A stretch of 38,597 nucleotides of DNA, from the IMG/VR virus record IMGVR_UViG_3300020187_000080, positions 1 through 38,597 of that record. One strand, written 5' to 3'. The notes under the pieces were generated by a model. The model saw only the letters and a program-made list of their open reading frames with translations, did not search any database and was not told the DNA's origin. The translations under genes were made by a program, and so were the position numbers. Positions 1 through 38,597 of this stretch are shown in pieces. The stretch is from a virus. Every line of letters starts with the position of its first letter. Position 1 is the first letter of the stretch.

Positions 1-433
1 GACAATCAGGATAAATAGCATGATCACCAGCATGAATACCTAAAGCGATATCTGTTTGCTCTTCTGTTTTGTTAGCTACTGAAAGAGCAACTGCTTGAAC
101 TAATGAAGCAAAGATTTTATTACGGTTAGGAACAACAGTAGCTTTCATGTTGTCTTCTTCATAATGTCCTTCTGGTACTTCATCTCCACCTGTTACAAGT
201 GCTGAATCTAGTAGATCAACTAACCCGTCTAAATGGATTTGACGATAATTAACATTATACCCACTAGTATTTAAATAATCTACTAATGATTGGGCACGTT
301 CAAGTTCAACTACGTGTTTTTGACCATAGTTAAAGCTTAATGCTGTAACGGTATCATATTCTTTGATAGCTCTTAACAATAGGGTGCTGCTATCCATTCC
401 ACCACTTAACGAAATTACACAGTGTTTTGCCAT
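1..433 (-). CDS. queC: 7-cyano-7-deazaguanine synthase QueC (C-terminus cut off by window edge)
   Basis: ATP-dependent enzyme that converts 7-carboxy-7-deazaguanine to preQ0, the base precursor of queuosine and of 7-deazaguanine DNA modifications. I translated it from the ATG at 433; about 144 residues are visible before the left edge. The N-terminus carries the PP-loop ATP-pyrophosphatase signature SGGMDS (residues 10-15), followed by the QueC-typical FNYGQKH, VVPNRNKIF and GIHAGDHAIYPDC segments. The zinc-binding cysteines expected at the C-terminus lie outside the window. It is the last visible gene of a leftward cluster that also contains a DpdA-like transglycosylase, so its likely role is supplying modified base for phage DNA rather than tRNA; that role is inference, the family assignment is not. 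Confidence 0.94.
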   Translation of the reverse strand, partial: MAKHCVISLSGGMDSSTLLLRAIKEYDTVTALSFNYGQKHVVELERAQSLVDYLNTSGYNVNYRQIHLDGLVDLLDSALVTGGDEVPEGHYEEDNMKATVVPNRNKIFASLVQAVALSVANKTEEQTDIALGIHAGDHAIYPDC

Positions 434-3718: not shown

Positions 3719-4723
3719 TTAGAGTGCACCTCTTTCAGAAGCCATTGTCCAATCAAATACTGTTAAATCAGCACCCATTGTAGTATCTACCATAACTGAA
3801 GTAGCTGAATCAGCAGATACATTTGTTAGACCTGTAAATGAAACAAATCCATTAGCACCATCTCTAAAGTGACATTCAACACCATCAGTAGAGATAAATG
3901 TACCTTCTTCTAAAATAAATGCTGGGTTAAGATTACCTTCACCTCCATCTAATTCTAGAGCGTGGTCTGAGTCTACACCTTCAATAGCAACATAATTTGT
4001 TACTGTCCCTTCCCAACCTTGATCAACATCGAAAGCATCATCACCTTGAGCCCATACTAATAGGTTGGAAGCGTTTACTGTACCTCCGAAAAACTCAATA
4101 CCATCATCTAAGTTACCTACTACTTCAATATGGTCAATTACAGTACCTGAACCTATACCGCCTAAGGTTAGCCCATTAAGCTCATTACCACCACCTAACA
4201 AAGTACCAGCGTGACGAATTGAAACATATTTTAATATACCTGAATTATTATGAATGTCTGTACCTCCGTAGGCACCAAATGTTTCATTTACAGGAATACC
4301 TTCAATTTGAGCAGGTGTAGCATCAGCTGAGATTGGAGCATAACCTAATACTACAATACCACCCCAAAGACCCATATCAGATTCATCTAAATTAGCACCT
4401 GTATCATAGATAGAGGTAAATATAATAGGGTTTTCAGCAGTACCTACTGCTTCAATTTTACTACCTTGAGCTACAATAAGAGCAGTAGATAAAGAACCTT
4501 GACCATCTCTTGCTTTAATTAAAGTGCCAGGTTGAATAGTTAAAGTAGCACCTTCACCTACTACAACTTTACCTGCCATTTCATAAATGGTATCTGAATA
4601 CCAAGTTACATCTTCTGAAATTAGTCCTGTTATAATACTTTCTTTGGGAAGTTCTACAGGGGGATTTTTTTCACATGAAGTGAAAGCTAAAATGGCTGCT
4701 AGAGCTAAAACGATTTTTTCCAC
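3719..4723 (-). CDS. Exported lipoprotein, flavobacterial beta-helix type
   Basis: A 334-residue predicted lipoprotein. A GTG start at 4723 gives a short signal peptide ending in the lipobox LAFTSC (lipid attachment at C17). The mature part opens with the flavobacterial pattern of a beta-solenoid family: VEGATLTIQPGTLIKA-like text (VVVGEGATLTIQPGT), NPIIFTS, GLWGGIVVLG, GTDIHNNSGILKYVSIRHAG, NGLTLGGIGSGTVIDHIEV, DDGIEFFGGTVN and DDAFDVDQGW. Similar proteins occur on flavobacterial surfaces; their function is unclear. In a phage this looks like a moron acquired from a host, perhaps altering the cell surface or excluding other phages. It is divergent from the plus-strand gene at 4832 and stands apart from both neighbouring arrays. 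Confidence 0.82.
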   Translation of the reverse strand: MEKIVLALAAILAFTSCEKNPPVELPKESIITGLISEDVTWYSDTIYEMAGKVVVGEGATLTIQPGTLIKARDGQGSLSTALIVAQGSKIEAVGTAENPIIFTSIYDTGANLDESDMGLWGGIVVLGYAPISADATPAQIEGIPVNETFGAYGGTDIHNNSGILKYVSIRHAGTLLGGGNELNGLTLGGIGSGTVIDHIEVVGNLDDGIEFFGGTVNASNLLVWAQGDDAFDVDQGWEGTVTNYVAIEGVDSDHALELDGGEGNLNPAFILEEGTFISTDGVECHFRDGANGFVSFTGLTNVSADSATSVMVDTTMGADLTVFDWTMASERGAL

Positions 4724-8310: not shown

Positions 8311-8640
8311 TTAGAAATCACCTAACACTAACTCATCTATATAATCTTGAACTTCTTCTTTGGTAGCTGATAGTTTAAAACTTAAATCTGCTTGGTATCT
8401 TTTTACCTCTTCATCGTATTCAAATATAATGATTGTAGGAACGACAACTACACCGAAATCTTTGGCGGTTTGGGGGGAGGAAGCTATATCTACAAACTCA
8501 ATATCACATTCCTTAAGTTTAGATACCCATTCTACTTGGTTAGCTTCATTCCAACTTGCGTTGAAATGGATAACTTTTATTTGAGCTTTAGCAGTAAAAC
8601 TTAAAAGGAAAAATGTTATTAAAAGTAGGAGATTTTTCAT
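8311..8640 (-). CDS. Secreted thioredoxin-fold protein lacking CxxC
   Basis: A 109-residue protein with signal peptide MKNLLLLITFFLLSFTAKA (cleavage before Q20). The mature part follows the thioredoxin order: strand IKVIHFNASW, helix, strand DIEFVDIA, helix, strand VVVVPTIIIFE with the cis-Pro segment VPT (67-69), and a last helix. The active-site position reads SWNEAN (29-34) where thioredoxins have WCGPC, so both redox cysteines are gone; one Cys remains at 45. It cannot be a normal disulfide reductase and may have a binding or chaperone role in the periplasm. Secreted thioredoxin-like proteins are common in marine phages, usually with CxxC. Confidence 0.82.
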   Translation of the reverse strand: MKNLLLLITFFLLSFTAKAQIKVIHFNASWNEANQVEWVSKLKECDIEFVDIASSPQTAKDFGVVVVPTIIIFEYDEEVKRYQADLSFKLSATKEEVQDYIDELVLGDF

Positions 8641-8641
8641 A

Positions 8642-8926
8642 TTACTTTAATTGATCTATTTTTTCTTCTAATCTTCTTAGATCAGTTTTTATTTCGTCTA
8701 CATCTTCTTTCGTAGTCATAATAGTTTGACGGATCAATTGATCCTTCATATCGTATTCCATACGCGTAACATCTGGTGGTGGTGGTACTGGGAGGGCTTT
8801 CGCTTCCTCAATATCAGCCTGTAATGTAAACCACATACCAACAACAGTTGCAACAAAGAATAAGATAATTCCTATTGTTTTTAAATCTAAAGTAATTTGA
8901 GTTCCCTCATCTAACTTCTTAGCCAT
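8642..8926 (-). CDS. Single-pass membrane protein with periplasmic coiled coil
   Basis: A 94-residue protein: short cytoplasmic N-terminus (MAKKLDEGTQITLDLK), one membrane segment (about 17-36, TIGIILFFVATVVGMWFTL), a proline patch (ALPVPPPPD) and a C-terminal coiled coil (about 60-94, heptad-like EIKTDLRRLEEKIDQLK). This is the layout of an inner-membrane spanin (Rz/i-spanin), and an outer-membrane partner could be encoded nearby, but no small Rz1-type lipoprotein is embedded here. A tail-associated or structural role is equally possible. It is spaced 1-2 bases from both neighbours. Confidence 0.75.
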   Translation of the reverse strand: MAKKLDEGTQITLDLKTIGIILFFVATVVGMWFTLQADIEEAKALPVPPPPDVTRMEYDMKDQLIRQTIMTTKEDVDEIKTDLRRLEEKIDQLK

Positions 8927-8928
8927 AT

Positions 8929-9981
8929 CTATCTAATAATATAATTTATTCCTGTTGAAAACTCGTACCAATTTCTATTCCAGTATTGGTGATAACGTCC
9001 TTCGGTAAATATACCAAGAGATTTGTTAAATCGATATCCAAATATCAACCCACCTGAATAATCAATCCATTGACCGCCATGGAACTTATGGTAACTATAA
9101 TCGTCTTCAATATCAACGTGATATGGTAATACGTTAGCCCACGAATGAACCCAAAAAGTTTTACTATAATGGTAATAATCAAAACCCATTACTAGTGAAT
9201 GTTCCCATTTATTAGGTAAAGCACTTCTTTGCTCATTAGCATATTCTGATAGGATTTGTGGGACTACTACAGCTTCAAATACTGCGGTACTATTGGCTAC
9301 TATTTCACCTTCAGGGTTGGTGTAAACATCACCTAGTCCTAGTGTATTCCAGTTATACCCCATATCTGTAGCGATTTTCATCCACGGGATACTACCATCA
9401 GGTCTTATACAATCAGCAAAGGGATCAAAACCATAAGGTTCGGAGATTCTTTGAACTGCACCTACGTTAAACGAGAATTTATTATTTAGTTTTTGTCTAA
9501 ATCTTTCTGATGATTCAAAATAACCAATATCAGCAAATCCATCTTCTAAGTATTCTACTTTGAATACATATCTGTCAGCTACATATCTTAAGAAATGATC
9601 TTGATTTATAAAGGTTTTACCTTGCTGTCTTCTGTAATCTAATTCGAATAAGTACTCAAATCCACTTCTTCTACCTATTGTAGCAGCATCTGAATATGAG
9701 TTCTCAGTACCATTTTTAAATCTATTCTGAATGTTTGGTTCGTATCCAAACCTTTGAATCTTTCTCAACCCAAATACTGCTGAGTAATCATAAGGGGTGA
9801 TTTCAGTATCTGTAGATAAACCATCTGTTACAGAGTATGTAGTGACATCTGAGATAGAATTATTACCATTATATGCTCCGTAAAATGTAGCAAATTTAAA
9901 GGTTCTTTTGATTTGGTCTTTTACATTAATTTGACCGAAAACCGAAACCGGAATAAGTAATAATAGTAGTAATTTTTTCAT
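8929..9981 (-). CDS. Outer-membrane beta-barrel-like exported protein
   Basis: A 350-residue protein with signal peptide MKKLLLLLLIPVSVFG (cleavage before Q17). The mature part is rich in Tyr, Phe and Trp with amphipathic strand runs (FEYLFELDYRRQQG, YVFKVEYLEDGFADIGYF, WEHSLVMGFDYYHYSKTFW, GLIFGYRFNKSLGIFTEGRY) and ends GINYIIR, close to the terminal beta-signal of outer-membrane proteins. Two Cys are absent apart from one at about 191. It directly follows the T9SS-sorted repeat protein with a 1-base gap, so the two are co-expressed and might work together at the cell surface. Its exact role is not known; a virion-structural role cannot be excluded. Confidence 0.75.
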   Translation of the reverse strand: MKKLLLLLLIPVSVFGQINVKDQIKRTFKFATFYGAYNGNNSISDVTTYSVTDGLSTDTEITPYDYSAVFGLRKIQRFGYEPNIQNRFKNGTENSYSDAATIGRRSGFEYLFELDYRRQQGKTFINQDHFLRYVADRYVFKVEYLEDGFADIGYFESSERFRQKLNNKFSFNVGAVQRISEPYGFDPFADCIRPDGSIPWMKIATDMGYNWNTLGLGDVYTNPEGEIVANSTAVFEAVVVPQILSEYANEQRSALPNKWEHSLVMGFDYYHYSKTFWVHSWANVLPYHVDIEDDYSYHKFHGGQWIDYSGGLIFGYRFNKSLGIFTEGRYHQYWNRNWYEFSTGINYIIR

Positions 9982-9982
9982 C

Positions 9983-12900
9983 TTAATCTTCTTTTACAAT
10001 TCTCTTATTAAATGTTTTATCACCATATCTAATAGATAAGAAATAAATACCATTTGGTAATGCTGTTATATCAATCATTTCTTCAGTTGAGTTTTTAACT
10101 AACTCCTTACCTATAGAGCTGTATAAACTATAAGTAATACTTAGTGAAGTTTTAATATTTAGATTACCTGTAGTGGGGTTAGGATAAACTACTATGTTAT
10201 CAAAAACAAATTCATTAATATCAATAGTGCCACTAGCTGTAGCACAGTAGTTGTATAACGACTGACAATCTGGATCCCAGGAGTTAGTACAGCAATATTC
10301 ATCTACATCAATTACCCAAGCGTAACATGGATCGTTTAACCAATATGGGTTACCAGGTCCATCTATACAACCAGCATCATAAACACAAGAACTATCTGAC
10401 ACGTTTGCTCCTGGGTTGTAGTTGTGTGCTGTAGGGTCGATACATCCAAATACTGAAGGAATACAAGATCCATTATCTGTGTTTGCTAAAGGATCATAGT
10501 TTACTGCACTTGAATCAGTACACCCATACACGATTGGTATACATGGGTTAGAAGGATCATTTGTTGATACTTGATTTACATTAGCTAATGGGTTGTAGTT
10601 AAAGGAGTTAGGATCGGTACAACCATATACTTTAGGAATACAAGTTCCATTATCAGTATTAGCTAAAGGATTGTAGTTTAATGATGTTGAATCAGTACAC
10701 CCATAGATAAATGGAATACAAGTACTATCATCAATATTAGCAGATTGATTGTAGTTAATTGAGTTTACGTTAGTACACCCAAATACTTTAGGAATACAAG
10801 ATCCGTTATTAGTATTAGCTAATGAGTTGTAGTTGAATGCTGTAGAATCTGTACATCCATATAAAGTAGGGATACACGTTCCGTTGTTTACATTAGCAGT
10901 GGAGTCGTAATTGAATGCTGTAGCATCTGTACACCCATAGATAAACGGAATACAAGAATTATCTAAAGTGTTTGCTAACGAATTATAGTTAAACTGAGTT
11001 GAGTCTGTACATCCATAAATAAATGGAATACAAGTACCTGCTGTATTAGCAGTTGAATCATAGTTCCATTGAGTGCTGTCTAAACATCCTACAATAATAG
11101 GAATACAAGTTCCTGAAACATTAGCTGTTGAATCGTAGTTGAAAGATAAAGGATTCGTACATCCCACTATTACTGGAATACAAGAACTGTCTAAAGTATT
11201 TGCTAAAGAATCGAAGTTAAATGCTGAAGTATCTGTACATCCAAATACCTTTTCAATACAAACATCTCCGAATGTTGGTTGAGCAGTTGTAGTCTGAATG
11301 ATAGGAAACTGTAATGATTGTGCTCCCCAGTAAGGTACATCTACAATAGTATCACCTTCTGGCCCATACAACGTATAAGCTACTTGAGCAATAGAACCTT
11401 GAGATTGTTGAGTAGTAAATAAATATAATTCGATTGGTTCGTAAATGTTTAGAGGTACCTCAAACGTTAGAGAGGAACCATCTTGTGGTCCTATCTTATA
11501 TTGTGGAGAAGTAATATCTCCTTGTTTGATACCTAACCAAGTACCACCCCATCCGTTAGATGCACCATCATAAATCTTTAGAGTGTAATCACCAAACATA
11601 ACTTCACTAGTGTTGGCGTTAGCATCGTAGTTAAATGAAGATGTATCAGTACACCCTACTATTCTTTGAGTACTACAAGAAGTATCACTTATAGTAGCAT
11701 TAGGGTTATAACTTAATGAGAATGGGTCTGTACACCCTACGATACTATTTGCACCACTGGAACAAGCACTTCCTGTACTAAACTGAGGAGAAGTATATAG
11801 GTACCCAAAGTTTGAGTTAGTCACTGAGTCGGCTAAGTTAAATAAAGTATTTTGATTACAATCTAATACTTGAAGATTACCGTTTACAGTACCTCCATAC
11901 AAAGTACCATTCAAACCATCACCATAACTATCACCAATAACAACATCAACTAATGCGTTTGTATCAACACAGATGTAGTAAGAGATACCTACACCAGGTT
12001 GGTAACCTGAATATGTTCCTGCTGGGGCTGAGTATAATGCTCCGTTGTCATCGTATAACGTCCAACTTGATTCACTACCATAGTTATCAGGAACAAAGTA
12101 AACTTGTAAATAAGTTTTACCGGGGTCACAATTTGGAATAGGATCACCCTGACATTGTCCGTCACTAACAGTAGCCCATGGGTTAAACTCAGTAGATGTA
12201 GAATCAGTACATCCTATAATATCTTCACAGTCTAAACATTTTTCCCAACAGTTAGTATCTAATACTACTGGTGCTCCATCTACTATTAGGTTTCTATTTG
12301 TAAACCCTGCTGCATCTAATAAGAAACAAGTTGCATATGGGTTTTGGTTGTTTTGCATATTTGGGGGTAACTCTTGGTCAGCCCAGTTATCAACTGAATA
12401 CTTCCATAGCCATCCTGGATTGTTTCCGATATCAATCGTACCTGTCCAAATGTTATCACCATCAGGGTCAGCTAAAGAATCCCAAATACCGCTCCAGCTA
12501 TTAAATTGACCGCTGACGTATACTTGGGAGAAGGTATCGGGATATGAGTTCATATCTACTGCAAAATCAACAGGATAGGTACATTGTCCATTACTTATAT
12601 TAGCATTAGGATTATAACTCGAGGAAGTTGAATCCATACAACCAGCTAGTGGTGGTGGTTGTGATAGAAGATTTACAACAGTATCATAAGACCAGTTTGG
12701 ATTGGACCCTACCCAGTCTATATTGTTGTTTTGAAAATCAAGTTTGGTTAAACTTAAAAGATCACCTTGAGTGTAGTTTCTAATACTAAGGTAAGAGTCT
12801 GATTGGAAGTAGTAACTATACCAACCGTAACTGTAAGCACTTTTTAATTCTACATGAATATCTCCAGTGTCGGCATTGATTACTGCATAGCGATATCTTG

Positions 12901-13096
12901 CTTGATTAGCAGGAGTACAATATGTTTCGTAAAGAGTATCGTTACCCTGAGTAATAACAATTCCTTGAGTATTAGATGAGGTAAACCCTCCGAATTCTAA
13001 CTCTATCTCAAACCAACCAGTTCCAGGTGTTTGGGATATTCCTAAAAATGGGAGGATCAAAAACAGAGATAATATAAACTTTTTCATAATCAACAT
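9983..13096 (-). CDS. Secreted Cys-repeat protein with T9SS C-terminal sorting domain
   Basis: A 1037-residue exported protein. The frame opens MLIMKKF; the second ATG (13087) gives a normal signal peptide ending before Q22. Next come a beta-rich N-terminal region, a carbohydrate-binding E-set-like stretch (about 175-240, VYVSGQFNSWSG), and beta-sandwich-like inserts. About fifteen copies of a 20-24 residue repeat, GC(T)D-x5-NY-x3-AN-x5-C, follow, densest at about 610-910. The C-terminus is a canonical T9SS type A sorting domain: VVYPNPTTGNLNIK, LPNGIYFLSI and KRIVKE. T9SS exists only in Bacteroidota and close relatives, so this phage protein should be exported through the host's T9SS and attached to or released from the surface. 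No catalytic site is recognised. It may be an adhesin, a shield, or cargo carried from a host genome. Confidence 0.9.
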   Translation of the reverse strand: MLIMKKFILSLFLILPFLGISQTPGTGWFEIELEFGGFTSSNTQGIVITQGNDTLYETYCTPANQARYRYAVINADTGDIHVELKSAYSYGWYSYYFQSDSYLSIRNYTQGDLLSLTKLDFQNNNIDWVGSNPNWSYDTVVNLLSQPPPLAGCMDSTSSSYNPNANISNGQCTYPVDFAVDMNSYPDTFSQVYVSGQFNSWSGIWDSLADPDGDNIWTGTIDIGNNPGWLWKYSVDNWADQELPPNMQNNQNPYATCFLLDAAGFTNRNLIVDGAPVVLDTNCWEKCLDCEDIIGCTDSTSTEFNPWATVSDGQCQGDPIPNCDPGKTYLQVYFVPDNYGSESSWTLYDDNGALYSAPAGTYSGYQPGVGISYYICVDTNALVDVVIGDSYGDGLNGTLYGGTVNGNLQVLDCNQNTLFNLADSVTNSNFGYLYTSPQFSTGSACSSGANSIVGCTDPFSLSYNPNATISDTSCSTQRIVGCTDTSSFNYDANANTSEVMFGDYTLKIYDGASNGWGGTWLGIKQGDITSPQYKIGPQDGSSLTFEVPLNIYEPIELYLFTTQQSQGSIAQVAYTLYGPEGDTIVDVPYWGAQSLQFPIIQTTTAQPTFGDVCIEKVFGCTDTSAFNFDSLANTLDSSCIPVIVGCTNPLSFNYDSTANVSGTCIPIIVGCLDSTQWNYDSTANTAGTCIPFIYGCTDSTQFNYNSLANTLDNSCIPFIYGCTDATAFNYDSTANVNNGTCIPTLYGCTDSTAFNYNSLANTNNGSCIPKVFGCTNVNSINYNQSANIDDSTCIPFIYGCTDSTSLNYNPLANTDNGTCIPKVYGCTDPNSFNYNPLANVNQVSTNDPSNPCIPIVYGCTDSSAVNYDPLANTDNGSCIPSVFGCIDPTAHNYNPGANVSDSSCVYDAGCIDGPGNPYWLNDPCYAWVIDVDEYCCTNSWDPDCQSLYNYCATASGTIDINEFVFDNIVVYPNPTTGNLNIKTSLSITYSLYSSIGKELVKNSTEEMIDITALPNGIYFLSIRYGDKTFNKRIVKED

Positions 13097-36187: not shown

Positions 36188-38597
36188 TTAAAGTTTTTCA
36201 ATCTTCGCATCTAACTCTTTAACAGCCTCAATAAGAACGGCTACTAGTTTTTCGTATTTAACAGCTTTGTATCCGTTTTCTCTTGTAGTTACTACTTCTG
36301 GTAGGATTGCTTCTATTTCTTGGGCAATCACCCCAATATCAGTTCCTTTATGAGAGTGAACAGATTCAAACCCTTCTTTCCATTCAAAGTTAACACCGTT
36401 AATAGCTTTTACTTTATCCAAAGCGTTACCTATTTTAACAATATTACCCTTTAGTTTTCTATCTGAAGAAGAATACGCTATAACATCAGCTCCAGCATGT
36501 ATTTCACCAGCTGTTGTTCCTAAAGTACTAGTACCTGAGGTCGTAACTGAGAGTGATTTACCTACGATAACAACATTACCTGAGTTATTATATAAGTTAG
36601 CTGTGTTTAGTGTTGTAGCTCCTGTTCTATAAGTAAAGTAGTTGTTAGTACCACTTATAGTAGCTGTTGGACCCGTAGGACCAATATTACCAATAGGACC
36701 AATAGGGCCAATAGGACCAATAGGGCCAATAGCACCTTGAGGACCGATAGGACCTGTAGGACCTGCTACTGTTGAAGCTGCTCCTGTAGGACCGATAGGA
36801 CCTGTAGGACCAATAGCACCTTGGGGTCCGATAGGACCTGTAGGACCAATAGCACCTTGGGGTCCGATAGGACCTGTAGGACCAATAGCACCTTGTGGAC
36901 CGATAGGACCGCTAGGACCTTGAGGACCGATAGGACCGCTAGGACCTTGAGGACCGATAGGACCACTAGGACCTGTAGGACCTGCTACTGTTGAAGCTGC
37001 TCCTGTAGGACCAATAGGACCTGTAGGACCTGCTACTGTTGAAGCTGCTCCTGTAGGACCGATAGGACCTGTAGGACCTGCTACTGTTGAAGCTGCTCCT
37101 GTAGGACCAATAGGACCTGTAGGACCTGCTACTGTTGAAGCTGCTCCTGTAGGACCGATAGGACCTGTAGGACCAATAGCACCTTGTGGACCGATAGGAC
37201 CGATAGGACCGCTAGGACCTGTAGGACCAATAGCACCTTGTGGACCGATAGGACCGATAGGACCTGTAGGACCAATAGCACCTTGTGGACCGATAGGACC
37301 GATAGGACCGCTAGGACCTGTAGGACCAATAGCACCTTGTGGACCAATAGGACCTTGAGCACCTTGTGGACCAATAGGACCTTGAGCACCTTGTGGACCA
37401 ATAGGACCTTGAGCACCTTGTGGACCAATAGGACCTTGAGCACCTTGTGGGCCTATAGGACCTTGAGCACCTTGTGGACCTATAGGACCTTGAGCACCTT
37501 GTGGACCAATAGGACCAATAGGACCTTGAGCTCCTGTAGAACCCGTAGGACCAATAGGACCGATTGGGCCGATAGGACCAATAGCACCTTGAGGACCGAT
37601 AGGACCTTGAGCACCTTGTGGACCAATAGGACCGATAGGACCTTGAGCTCCTGTAGAACCCGTAGGACCAATAGGACCAATAGGACCAATAGGACCAATA
37701 GCACCTTGTGGGCCAATAGGACCTTGAGCACCTTGTGGACCTATAGGACCAATAGCACCTTGTGGACCAATAGGACCAATAGCACCTTGTGGGCCAATAG
37801 GACCTTGGGCACCTTGTGGACCAATAGGACCAATAGCACCTTGTGGACCAATAGGACCAATAGCACCTTGTGGACCAATAGGACCTTGAGCACCTTGTGG
37901 ACCAATAGGACCAATAGGACCTTGAGCTCCTGTAGAACCCGTAGGACCAATAGGACCGATTGGGCCGATAGGACCAATAGCACCTTGTGGACCAATAGGA
38001 CCTTGAGCACCTTGTGGGCCTATAGGACCTTGAGCACCTTGTGGACCTATAGGACCTTGAGCACCTTGTGGACCAATAGGACCAATAGGACCTTGAGCTC
38101 CTGTAGAACCCGTAGGACCAATAGGACCGATTGGGCCGATAGGACCAATAGCACCTTGAGGACCGATAGGACCTTGAGCACCTTGTGGACCAATAGGACC
38201 GATAGGACCTTGAGCTCCTGTAGAACCCGTAGGGCCTATAGGACCAATAGGACCAATAGGACCAATAGCACCTTGTGGGCCAATAGGACCTTGAGCACCT
38301 TGTGGTCCGATAGGACCGATAGCACCTTGTGGACCAATAGGACCTTGAGCTCCTTGTGGACCAATAGGACCAATAGGACCTTGAGCTCCTGTAGAACCCG
38401 TAGGACCAATAGGACCAATAGGACCAATAGGACCAATAGCACCTTGTGGACCAATAGGACCAATAGGACCAATAGCACCTTGTGGACCAATAGGACCAAT
38501 AGGACCTTGAGCTCCTGTAGAACCCGTAGGACCAATAGGACCGATTGGGCCGATAGGACCAATAGCACCTTGAGGACCGATAGGACCATGAGAACCT
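36188..38597 (-). CDS. Collagen-like tail fibre with S74 intramolecular chaperone (N-terminus outside window)
   Basis: The frame is open from the right edge to the TAA at 36188 without interruption (803 codons), and lacks a Met start only because the N-terminus lies outside. From the edge to about 36672 it encodes Gly-X-Y collagen-like triplets, mostly [15 protein letters not shown] and GST. Near 36766-37140 the triplets are broken by GAASTVA insertions. Next come a beta-rich stalk ([19 protein letters not shown], then [16 protein letters not shown]) and a C-terminal S74 domain with SDRKLKGNI (the Ser-Lys dyad of the self-cleaving SDxRxK motif), [15 protein letters not shown] and [22 protein letters not shown] split as two helices. 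S74 domains trimerise the fibre and then cleave themselves off. It should be a receptor-binding or side fibre. Confidence 0.92.
36672..38597. repeat. Collagen-coding tandem repeat array, 9-bp unit with higher-order blocks
   Basis: A GC-richer array of 9-bp units, each one Gly-X-Y codon triplet. A landmark block (plus strand CTCCTGTAGAACCC, coding GSTGAQ) starts at 37531, 37648, 37927, 38098, 38215, 38386 and 38512; the intervals are 117, 279, 171, 117, 171 and 126 bp, all multiples of 9. This indicates expansion by unequal recombination in frame. Such arrays change length readily. Confidence 0.9.
36978..37150. repeat. 48-bp tandem repeats encoding collagen interruptions
   Basis: CTGCTACTGTTGAAGC recurs at about 36982, 37030, 37078 and 37126 with exact 48-bp spacing, and once more near 36764. 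Each unit encodes 16 residues, GAASTVA plus three GPx triplets. Because 7 is not a multiple of 3, each copy shifts the Gly register, which would put a kink or hinge in the triple helix. Confidence 0.85.

Follow-up and report, generated by a model that had tools for sequence, protein, structure and literature searches.

A type IX secretion cargo protein in a conserved four-gene set of large phages of marine Bacteroidota

In the type IX secretion system (T9SS), SprA-PorV binds type A C-terminal sorting domains (CTDs), after which the cargo either leaves the cell or becomes attached to lipopolysaccharide at the surface (PMC10994853). A Lys near the C terminus is known as a near-invariant residue of these domains (PMC10994853). 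Type B cargo is genetically linked to PorP/SprF, an outer-membrane barrel shuttle (PMC12618676).

The idea that phages carry T9SS cargo is not new, having appeared in 2019 (PMC6949934) and in 2020 (PMC7468147). The earlier report describes T9SS sorting domains on crAss-BACON contigs, one of them sharing its ORF with BACON repeats (de Jonge et al. 2019). The later report described phage-encoded T9SS type A cargo in Cryophage, and proposed both hijacking of host secretion and superinfection exclusion (Bellas et al. 2020).

In this study, we analyzed a 38.6-kb IMG/VR virus record (the window, i.e., the whole stretch of 38,597 nucleotides) together with its relatives. In large phages of marine Bacteroidota, four genes form a nearly constant set, coding for a large, Cys-rich T9SS cargo, a barrel of the outer membrane, an anchor in the inner membrane and a periplasmic protein. 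That the cargo gene is a real phage gene encoding T9SS type A cargo is strongly supported by its profile matches, fold, motifs, purifying selection and the replacement, instead of loss, of its tail. As far as our literature searches reach, four findings are new: that the module is conserved, how widely it occurs, that its tails are swapped and that an isolated phage has a counterpart.

The cargo protein and its sorting domain

The cargo gene lies on the minus strand, as do the neighboring genes, and encodes a protein with a predicted size of ~112 kDa (Table 1). A sequence-only reading of the window had placed here, at the same coordinates and in phage orientation, a gene for a protein with a signal peptide, about fifteen Cys repeats and a complete type A sorting domain, and all of these features were recovered. 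The signal peptide, identified by eye, is MLIMKKFILSLFLILPFLGIS/Q, ending in ...GIS/Q. Gln22 is nearly invariant in our alignment of cargo relatives (A2), and the combination of a small residue and Gln, a sequence motif only, was found in the signal peptides of 91 of 92 tailed relatives. The repeats, with the pattern GC[TMLI][DN]...N[YF]...A...C, number 15 when counted in the translation.

Regions of the protein differ in conservation. In most comparisons the N-terminal domain varies more than any other part (dN/dS 0.15-0.36), and the Cys-rich domain preceding the CTD is one of the two best conserved regions. The domain at residues 151-300 also occurs in bacterial genomes, partly in tandem; it had no match in Pfam and was modeled by AlphaFold2 with pLDDT below 50, and by eye it looks like a possible E-set or CBM-like domain. 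The fold search listed no convincing match to a known fold for either the N-terminal domain or residues 151-300. The beta-sandwich at residues 320-445 is weakly similar to a Ca-dependent carbohydrate-binding module (2xhh), with a Z score of 6.8 that is below the level considered meaningful for the tool.

The C-terminus matches the profiles of T9SS sorting domains: TIGR04183 scored 45.7 bits at residues 970-1036 (cut-off 23), and PF18962 scored 42.5 bits (cut-off 27). A phmmer search of the PDB returned two T9SS substrate CTDs as its sole matches, 8glk_D (NucA, E 3e-6) and 8glj_D (FspA, E 3e-4). The closest solved relative by sequence is thus the NucA CTD, which was captured in the SprA-PorV translocon. 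The AlphaFold2 model of residues 968-1035 has seven strands, with pLDDT of about 77-89, and it aligned with 8glk_D and the RgpB CTD (7pq4) at Z 8.5 and with RemZ (8gl8_D) at Z 8.4. Since these scores were tied with those of DUF3244 Ig-like folds, the fold agrees with a T9SS CTD but is not decisive alone, and the sequence evidence is stronger. All of 87 distinct phage type A CTDs have PNP and one particular Gly, and all but one (86) have the C-terminal Lys. The dN/dS values of the CTD were 0.12-0.38.

Table 1. Positions of the cargo protein, its parts and its module partners in the window
Feature	Position	Strand	Basis or remark
T9SS cargo protein (P0001), 1037 aa	9983..13096	-	Translation, profile matches, relatives
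Signal peptide, residues 1-21	13034..13096	-	Sequence; cleavage expected before Gln22
N-terminal domain, residues 22-150	12647..13033	-	Beta-rich
First GCTD repeat and domain, residues 151-300	12197..12646	-	Well conserved across relatives
Beta-sandwich domain, residues about 320-445	11762..12139	-	AlphaFold2 model, fold search
Second (D)GxxNGWGG-kind domain, residues about 500-605	11282..11599	-	Sequence, AlphaFold2 model
11 of the 15 GCTD...NY...AN...C repeats, in one run, residues 613-907	10376..11260	-	Translation
Cys-rich domain GCIDGPGNPYWLNDPCYAWVIDVDEYCC, residues 908-955	10232..10375	-	Alignment A2, dN/dS
T9SS type A C-terminal sorting domain, residues 966-1037	9986..10201	-	Profiles, PDB sequence match, AlphaFold2 fold
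OMP350, predicted outer-membrane beta-barrel protein	8929..9981	-	Signal peptide and 12 predicted strands
TM94	8642..8926	-	N-terminal transmembrane segment, then conserved segment and coiled-coil-like end
TRX109	8311..8640	-	Signal peptide and thioredoxin-like domain

Phage setting and the four-gene module

Besides the cargo, the window encodes a tail sheath, ribonucleotide reductase, UvsX-like and DnaB-like proteins and a phage single-strand DNA binding protein. The cargo protein was found along its whole length in many viral contigs, and protein and setting recur together in more than 90 distinct viral sequences. Four cargo-bearing viral records are 172-178 kb in length, each with exactly one TIGR04183 match. 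Because the gene, its neighbors and their order are the same in many independent contigs, including these large records, a chimera or host contamination could be ruled out, and the phage origin proposed from the sequence stands. A tail sheath was detected in 10 of 19 large phage records; in several of these (G003, G006, G011, G014 and others) the profile matches cross in-frame stop codons.

Elsewhere in the window, the product of 3719-4723 (minus strand) is a predicted lipoprotein (lipobox ...TSCEK, by eye) with beta-helix-like repeats, and a 69% relative lies upstream of the cargo in one related locus (L011). At 36188-38596 (minus strand), a gene that runs off the contig encodes collagen-like GPxGPx repeats and an S74 chaperone (endosialidase-type) end; its product is probably a tail fibre. 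A partial QueC-like protein is encoded at 2-433 (minus strand), and an annotated QueC is present in Flavobacterium phage immuto (see below), which together suggest 7-deazaguanine chemistry in this phage group.

SprA was not found in the 19 phage records. It was detected, with scores above 2,380 bits, in three MAGs whose bins contain module contigs (these contigs may be co-binned phage), and the same MAGs had 39, 15 and 42 TIGR04183 matches, binning being no proof of a host.

Directly downstream of the cargo gene are those for OMP350, TM94 and TRX109. The initial proposal of a phage gene for T9SS cargo is strongly supported, but its single-gene view was too narrow: four genes make up a conserved envelope module, of which the cargo is the outermost component. 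Among 109 distinct complete OMP350 genes, the stop codon of the cargo gene lies at most 300 nt upstream in 64, and cargo is encoded elsewhere in the locus in 38. Six of the remaining genes have too little flanking sequence, and one (L019) has a cut-off cargo homologue at the end of the locus. The median gap between cargo and OMP350 is -1 nt, with a 4-nt overlap in 27 of the 64 pairs. Of 105 loci, 98 encode TM94 and 95 encode TRX109.

OMP350 is predicted to be a 12-strand outer-membrane barrel (model pLDDT 75); set beside the 14-strand FadL-like barrel of PorV/FadL-type shuttles, this prediction does not decide for or against a shuttle of that type. Its nearest structural neighbors, OmpG, TamA and CymA (Z about 11), are generic barrels only. 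No PorP/SprF match in Pfam was detected among 50 members at E 0.01, and the window member had no match in NCBIfam; these 50 members share no Pfam family, one of them having a weak FtsH_ext match. A lipobox-like SC occurs in the signal peptide of some OMP350 relatives. The protein was found in at least 544 viral stretches, and had only 5 matches in 84,980 bacterial and archaeal genomes, mostly on MAG contigs with other module genes. No relatives of OMP350 or TM94 were found in 50,697 phage records, and the PHROG collection gave no family for OMP350 or TRX109 and weak matches only for TM94.

In most of 25 aligned TRX109 members, WNxxN takes the place of the WCxxC of thioredoxins, and no CxxC is present at this site. 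TRX109 is a predicted redox-dead thioredoxin relative that has been kept across the phage group.

Tail replacement and a counterpart in an isolated phage

We examined how constant the sorting tail is among the relatives. The loci encode 94 distinct full-length GCTD-repeat proteins, and these have a type A CTD in 77 cases, an alternative short tail in 15 and neither in 2. Mapped onto a tree built from 104 OMP350 sequences, tail type requires at least 5 changes, and OMP350 did not change in step with it. The tail was replaced but not lost, and it is maintained by selection. In some pairs dS is very uneven between regions (0.29 for the CTD in L022 versus about 1-1.6 elsewhere), suggesting recombination.

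The two proteins with neither tail (L144:2560-6903 and L148:656-5356, both on the plus strand) are large GCTD-repeat proteins of the same phages that also lack an N-terminal signal peptide; they are possibly virion proteins.

The alternative tail (L173-L191), e.g., LLGRxxxxxxxLLFYIYDDGTVEKKIIxx, is common to phage cargo and Flavobacteriales proteins, several of which have signal peptides. Among 149 genomes from the class to which the NAT55 MAG belongs, 5 encode proteins that end in it, and the NAT55 MAG has 15 copies. Searches of NCBIfam gave no match to this tail, and those of Pfam gave chance matches only. The tail is a candidate secretion tail, and the replacements suggest that some marine Flavobacteriales may rely for secretion on a second type of C-terminal tail that has not been curated.

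By its tail sheath, which is 52% identical, the nearest isolated relative is Flavobacterium phage vB_FspM_immuto (NC_055915). Like the window phages, it is T4-like and encodes one TIGR04183 protein after dnaB-nrdB-nrdA, followed by one-TM and secreted proteins (gp013-gp018). The tailed protein, gp015 (L193:1006-1737, plus strand; NC_055915.1 12691-13422), is a cohesin-domain protein with a T9SS type A CTD (46.5 bits); it was deposited as 'cohesin domain-containing protein' and the CTD was left unnamed. Two genes earlier, gp013 (L196:5528-6526 and L196:6599-7690, plus strand) has a signal peptide, a C-type lectin domain and a dockerin-like stretch, DVNNDSRFTVSDIYSIY. By eye, this stretch and the gp015 cohesin could form a cohesin-dockerin pair. 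Of the other products, gp016 is a one-TM protein, gp017 is secreted (CsgG was matched by only 1 of 17 relatives) and gp018 is secreted, with C-terminal strands that appear barrel-like by eye.

In viral contigs found via gp017, a T9SS-tail protein is encoded in 75 of 80 loci; in these 75, the cargo of this second group adjoins a one-TM protein, a secreted protein and a secreted, possibly barrel-bearing protein. The two groups differ in that the immuto cargo is a cohesin-domain protein and that OMP350 and TM94 were not detected in immuto. Homology between the modules was considered and was not detected save for a weak likeness of TM94 to gp016: no homology was detectable between OMP350 and gp018, and the likeness of TRX109 to gp017 lies mainly in the signal peptide. 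A tblastn search of phages with the bare CTD missed immuto even at E 1, so these searches do not amount to a census of phage CTDs; six other Bacteroidota phage isolates had no TIGR04183 match. A counterpart is available in the isolated pair of immuto and its host, Flavobacterium sp. LMO8, which makes the question amenable to bench tests.

Proposed role and comparison with known systems

The sorting domain, the fold classes of the CTD and the barrel, and the conserved gene order were established by computation, and around them we propose the following. The cargo would be destined for the outer face of Bacteroidota cells under infection. Sec would carry it into the periplasm, where host SprA-PorV would recognize the CTD and move the protein across the outer membrane, leading to its release or attachment; export by the host T9SS is very likely. 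Because OMP350 does not follow the changes in tail type, another protein probably carries the CTD; as OMP350 is also not a recognized shuttle, we propose it as a probable docking or retention site for the cargo. TM94 would be an inner-membrane protein reaching into the periplasm, and TRX109, which has no redox cysteines, a probable binding or folding partner there. Partnership of the cargo with these three proteins is probable, and the four would act in the envelope as a module by which the surface is coated or altered while infection proceeds. This change may mask receptors and keep out competing phages, which is the role we consider most likely, and only tentatively. To the reading as a whole, in which a T9SS-exported cargo and three phage partners alter the host surface, we assign a probability of roughly 0.6.

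Other uses of the genes were weighed against this proposal. In the window, the cassette is followed by genes for a holin-like protein, an M15 endolysin and a Phage_holin_4_1 protein, and this neighborhood makes a lysis role possible for the partners: the cassette could be an outer-membrane lysis apparatus, a spanin counterpart, with the cargo as a passenger or as an envelope-breaking part at the end of infection. The topology of TM94 would suit an inner-membrane spanin or a one-TM holin. Of 152 loci, 73 have window-type holin-like genes at a distance of at most 8 kb, but only 15 have the window-type endolysin so near. Moreover, apart from the lipobox-like SC of some OMP350 relatives, the conserved set shows no o-spanin-like lipoprotein, and spanin lysis offers no known use for an extracellular protein of 112 kDa that carries a secretion signal, so this explanation seems quite unlikely. 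With its Cys repeats and beta-sandwich domains the protein resembles an adhesin, and if displayed it could bind cells or released virions to one another or attach them to algal polysaccharide or particles, favoring spread instead of exclusion. The similarity to a carbohydrate-binding module and the secreted C-type lectin next to the immuto cargo fit such a role. That similarity is, however, below the meaningful level, and simple adhesion does not require an outer-membrane barrel, an inner-membrane anchor and a periplasmic protein; we regard adhesion as unlikely.

A virion component, i.e., a tail or head fibre whose CTD is a borrowed beta-sandwich with no secretory role, is very improbable. GCTD-repeat stretches do occur in a cyanophage protein annotated as virion structural and in the two large signal-less GCTD proteins of these loci, but the latter have no tail either, and the signal-peptide motif accompanies the tail in nearly every tailed protein. 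A swap to another tail known from secreted host proteins would also be senseless for a virion part. An extension of our own proposal, which we consider somewhat doubtful, is a dedicated envelope-spanning display machine in which the T9SS would export the cargo, the barrel would hold it and the inner-membrane and periplasmic proteins would bridge the envelope, with two forms in two phage groups and a tail swapped to suit the host.

The proposed surface-altering module may be compared with the systems described earlier. The Cryophage genome likewise encodes proteins with T9SS type A sorting domains, but there these are an endoglucanase, a GH39 hydrolase and a PA14 protein that occur as variable genes, whereas the window group, a large T4-like one, has one conserved repeat protein in a fixed unit with outer-membrane barrel, TM and Trx-fold proteins. 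The crAss-BACON contigs belong to gut crAss-like phages and carry other domains, and the available part of that report describes no partner module. Linkage of a cargo gene to an outer-membrane barrel gene recalls type B cargo and PorP/SprF, but the phage CTD is type A (a type that uses PorV), and OMP350 neither matches PorP/SprF in Pfam nor tracks tail type. The F. johnsoniae proteins NucA, FspA and RemZ (PMC10994853; 8glk, 8glj, 8gl8) are similar in CTD sequence (NucA, FspA) and in the seven-strand fold, but they are host proteins with other passenger domains. Our data suggest that phages rebuild the exterior of the infected cell with the export machine of the host, and surface remodeling is probably a core part of infection of Bacteroidota by this phage group and not the work of a stray accessory gene. 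Single phage genes with T9SS tails have been noted before; here the cargo is nearly constant in a large group of marine phages and belongs to a fixed module with its own barrel.
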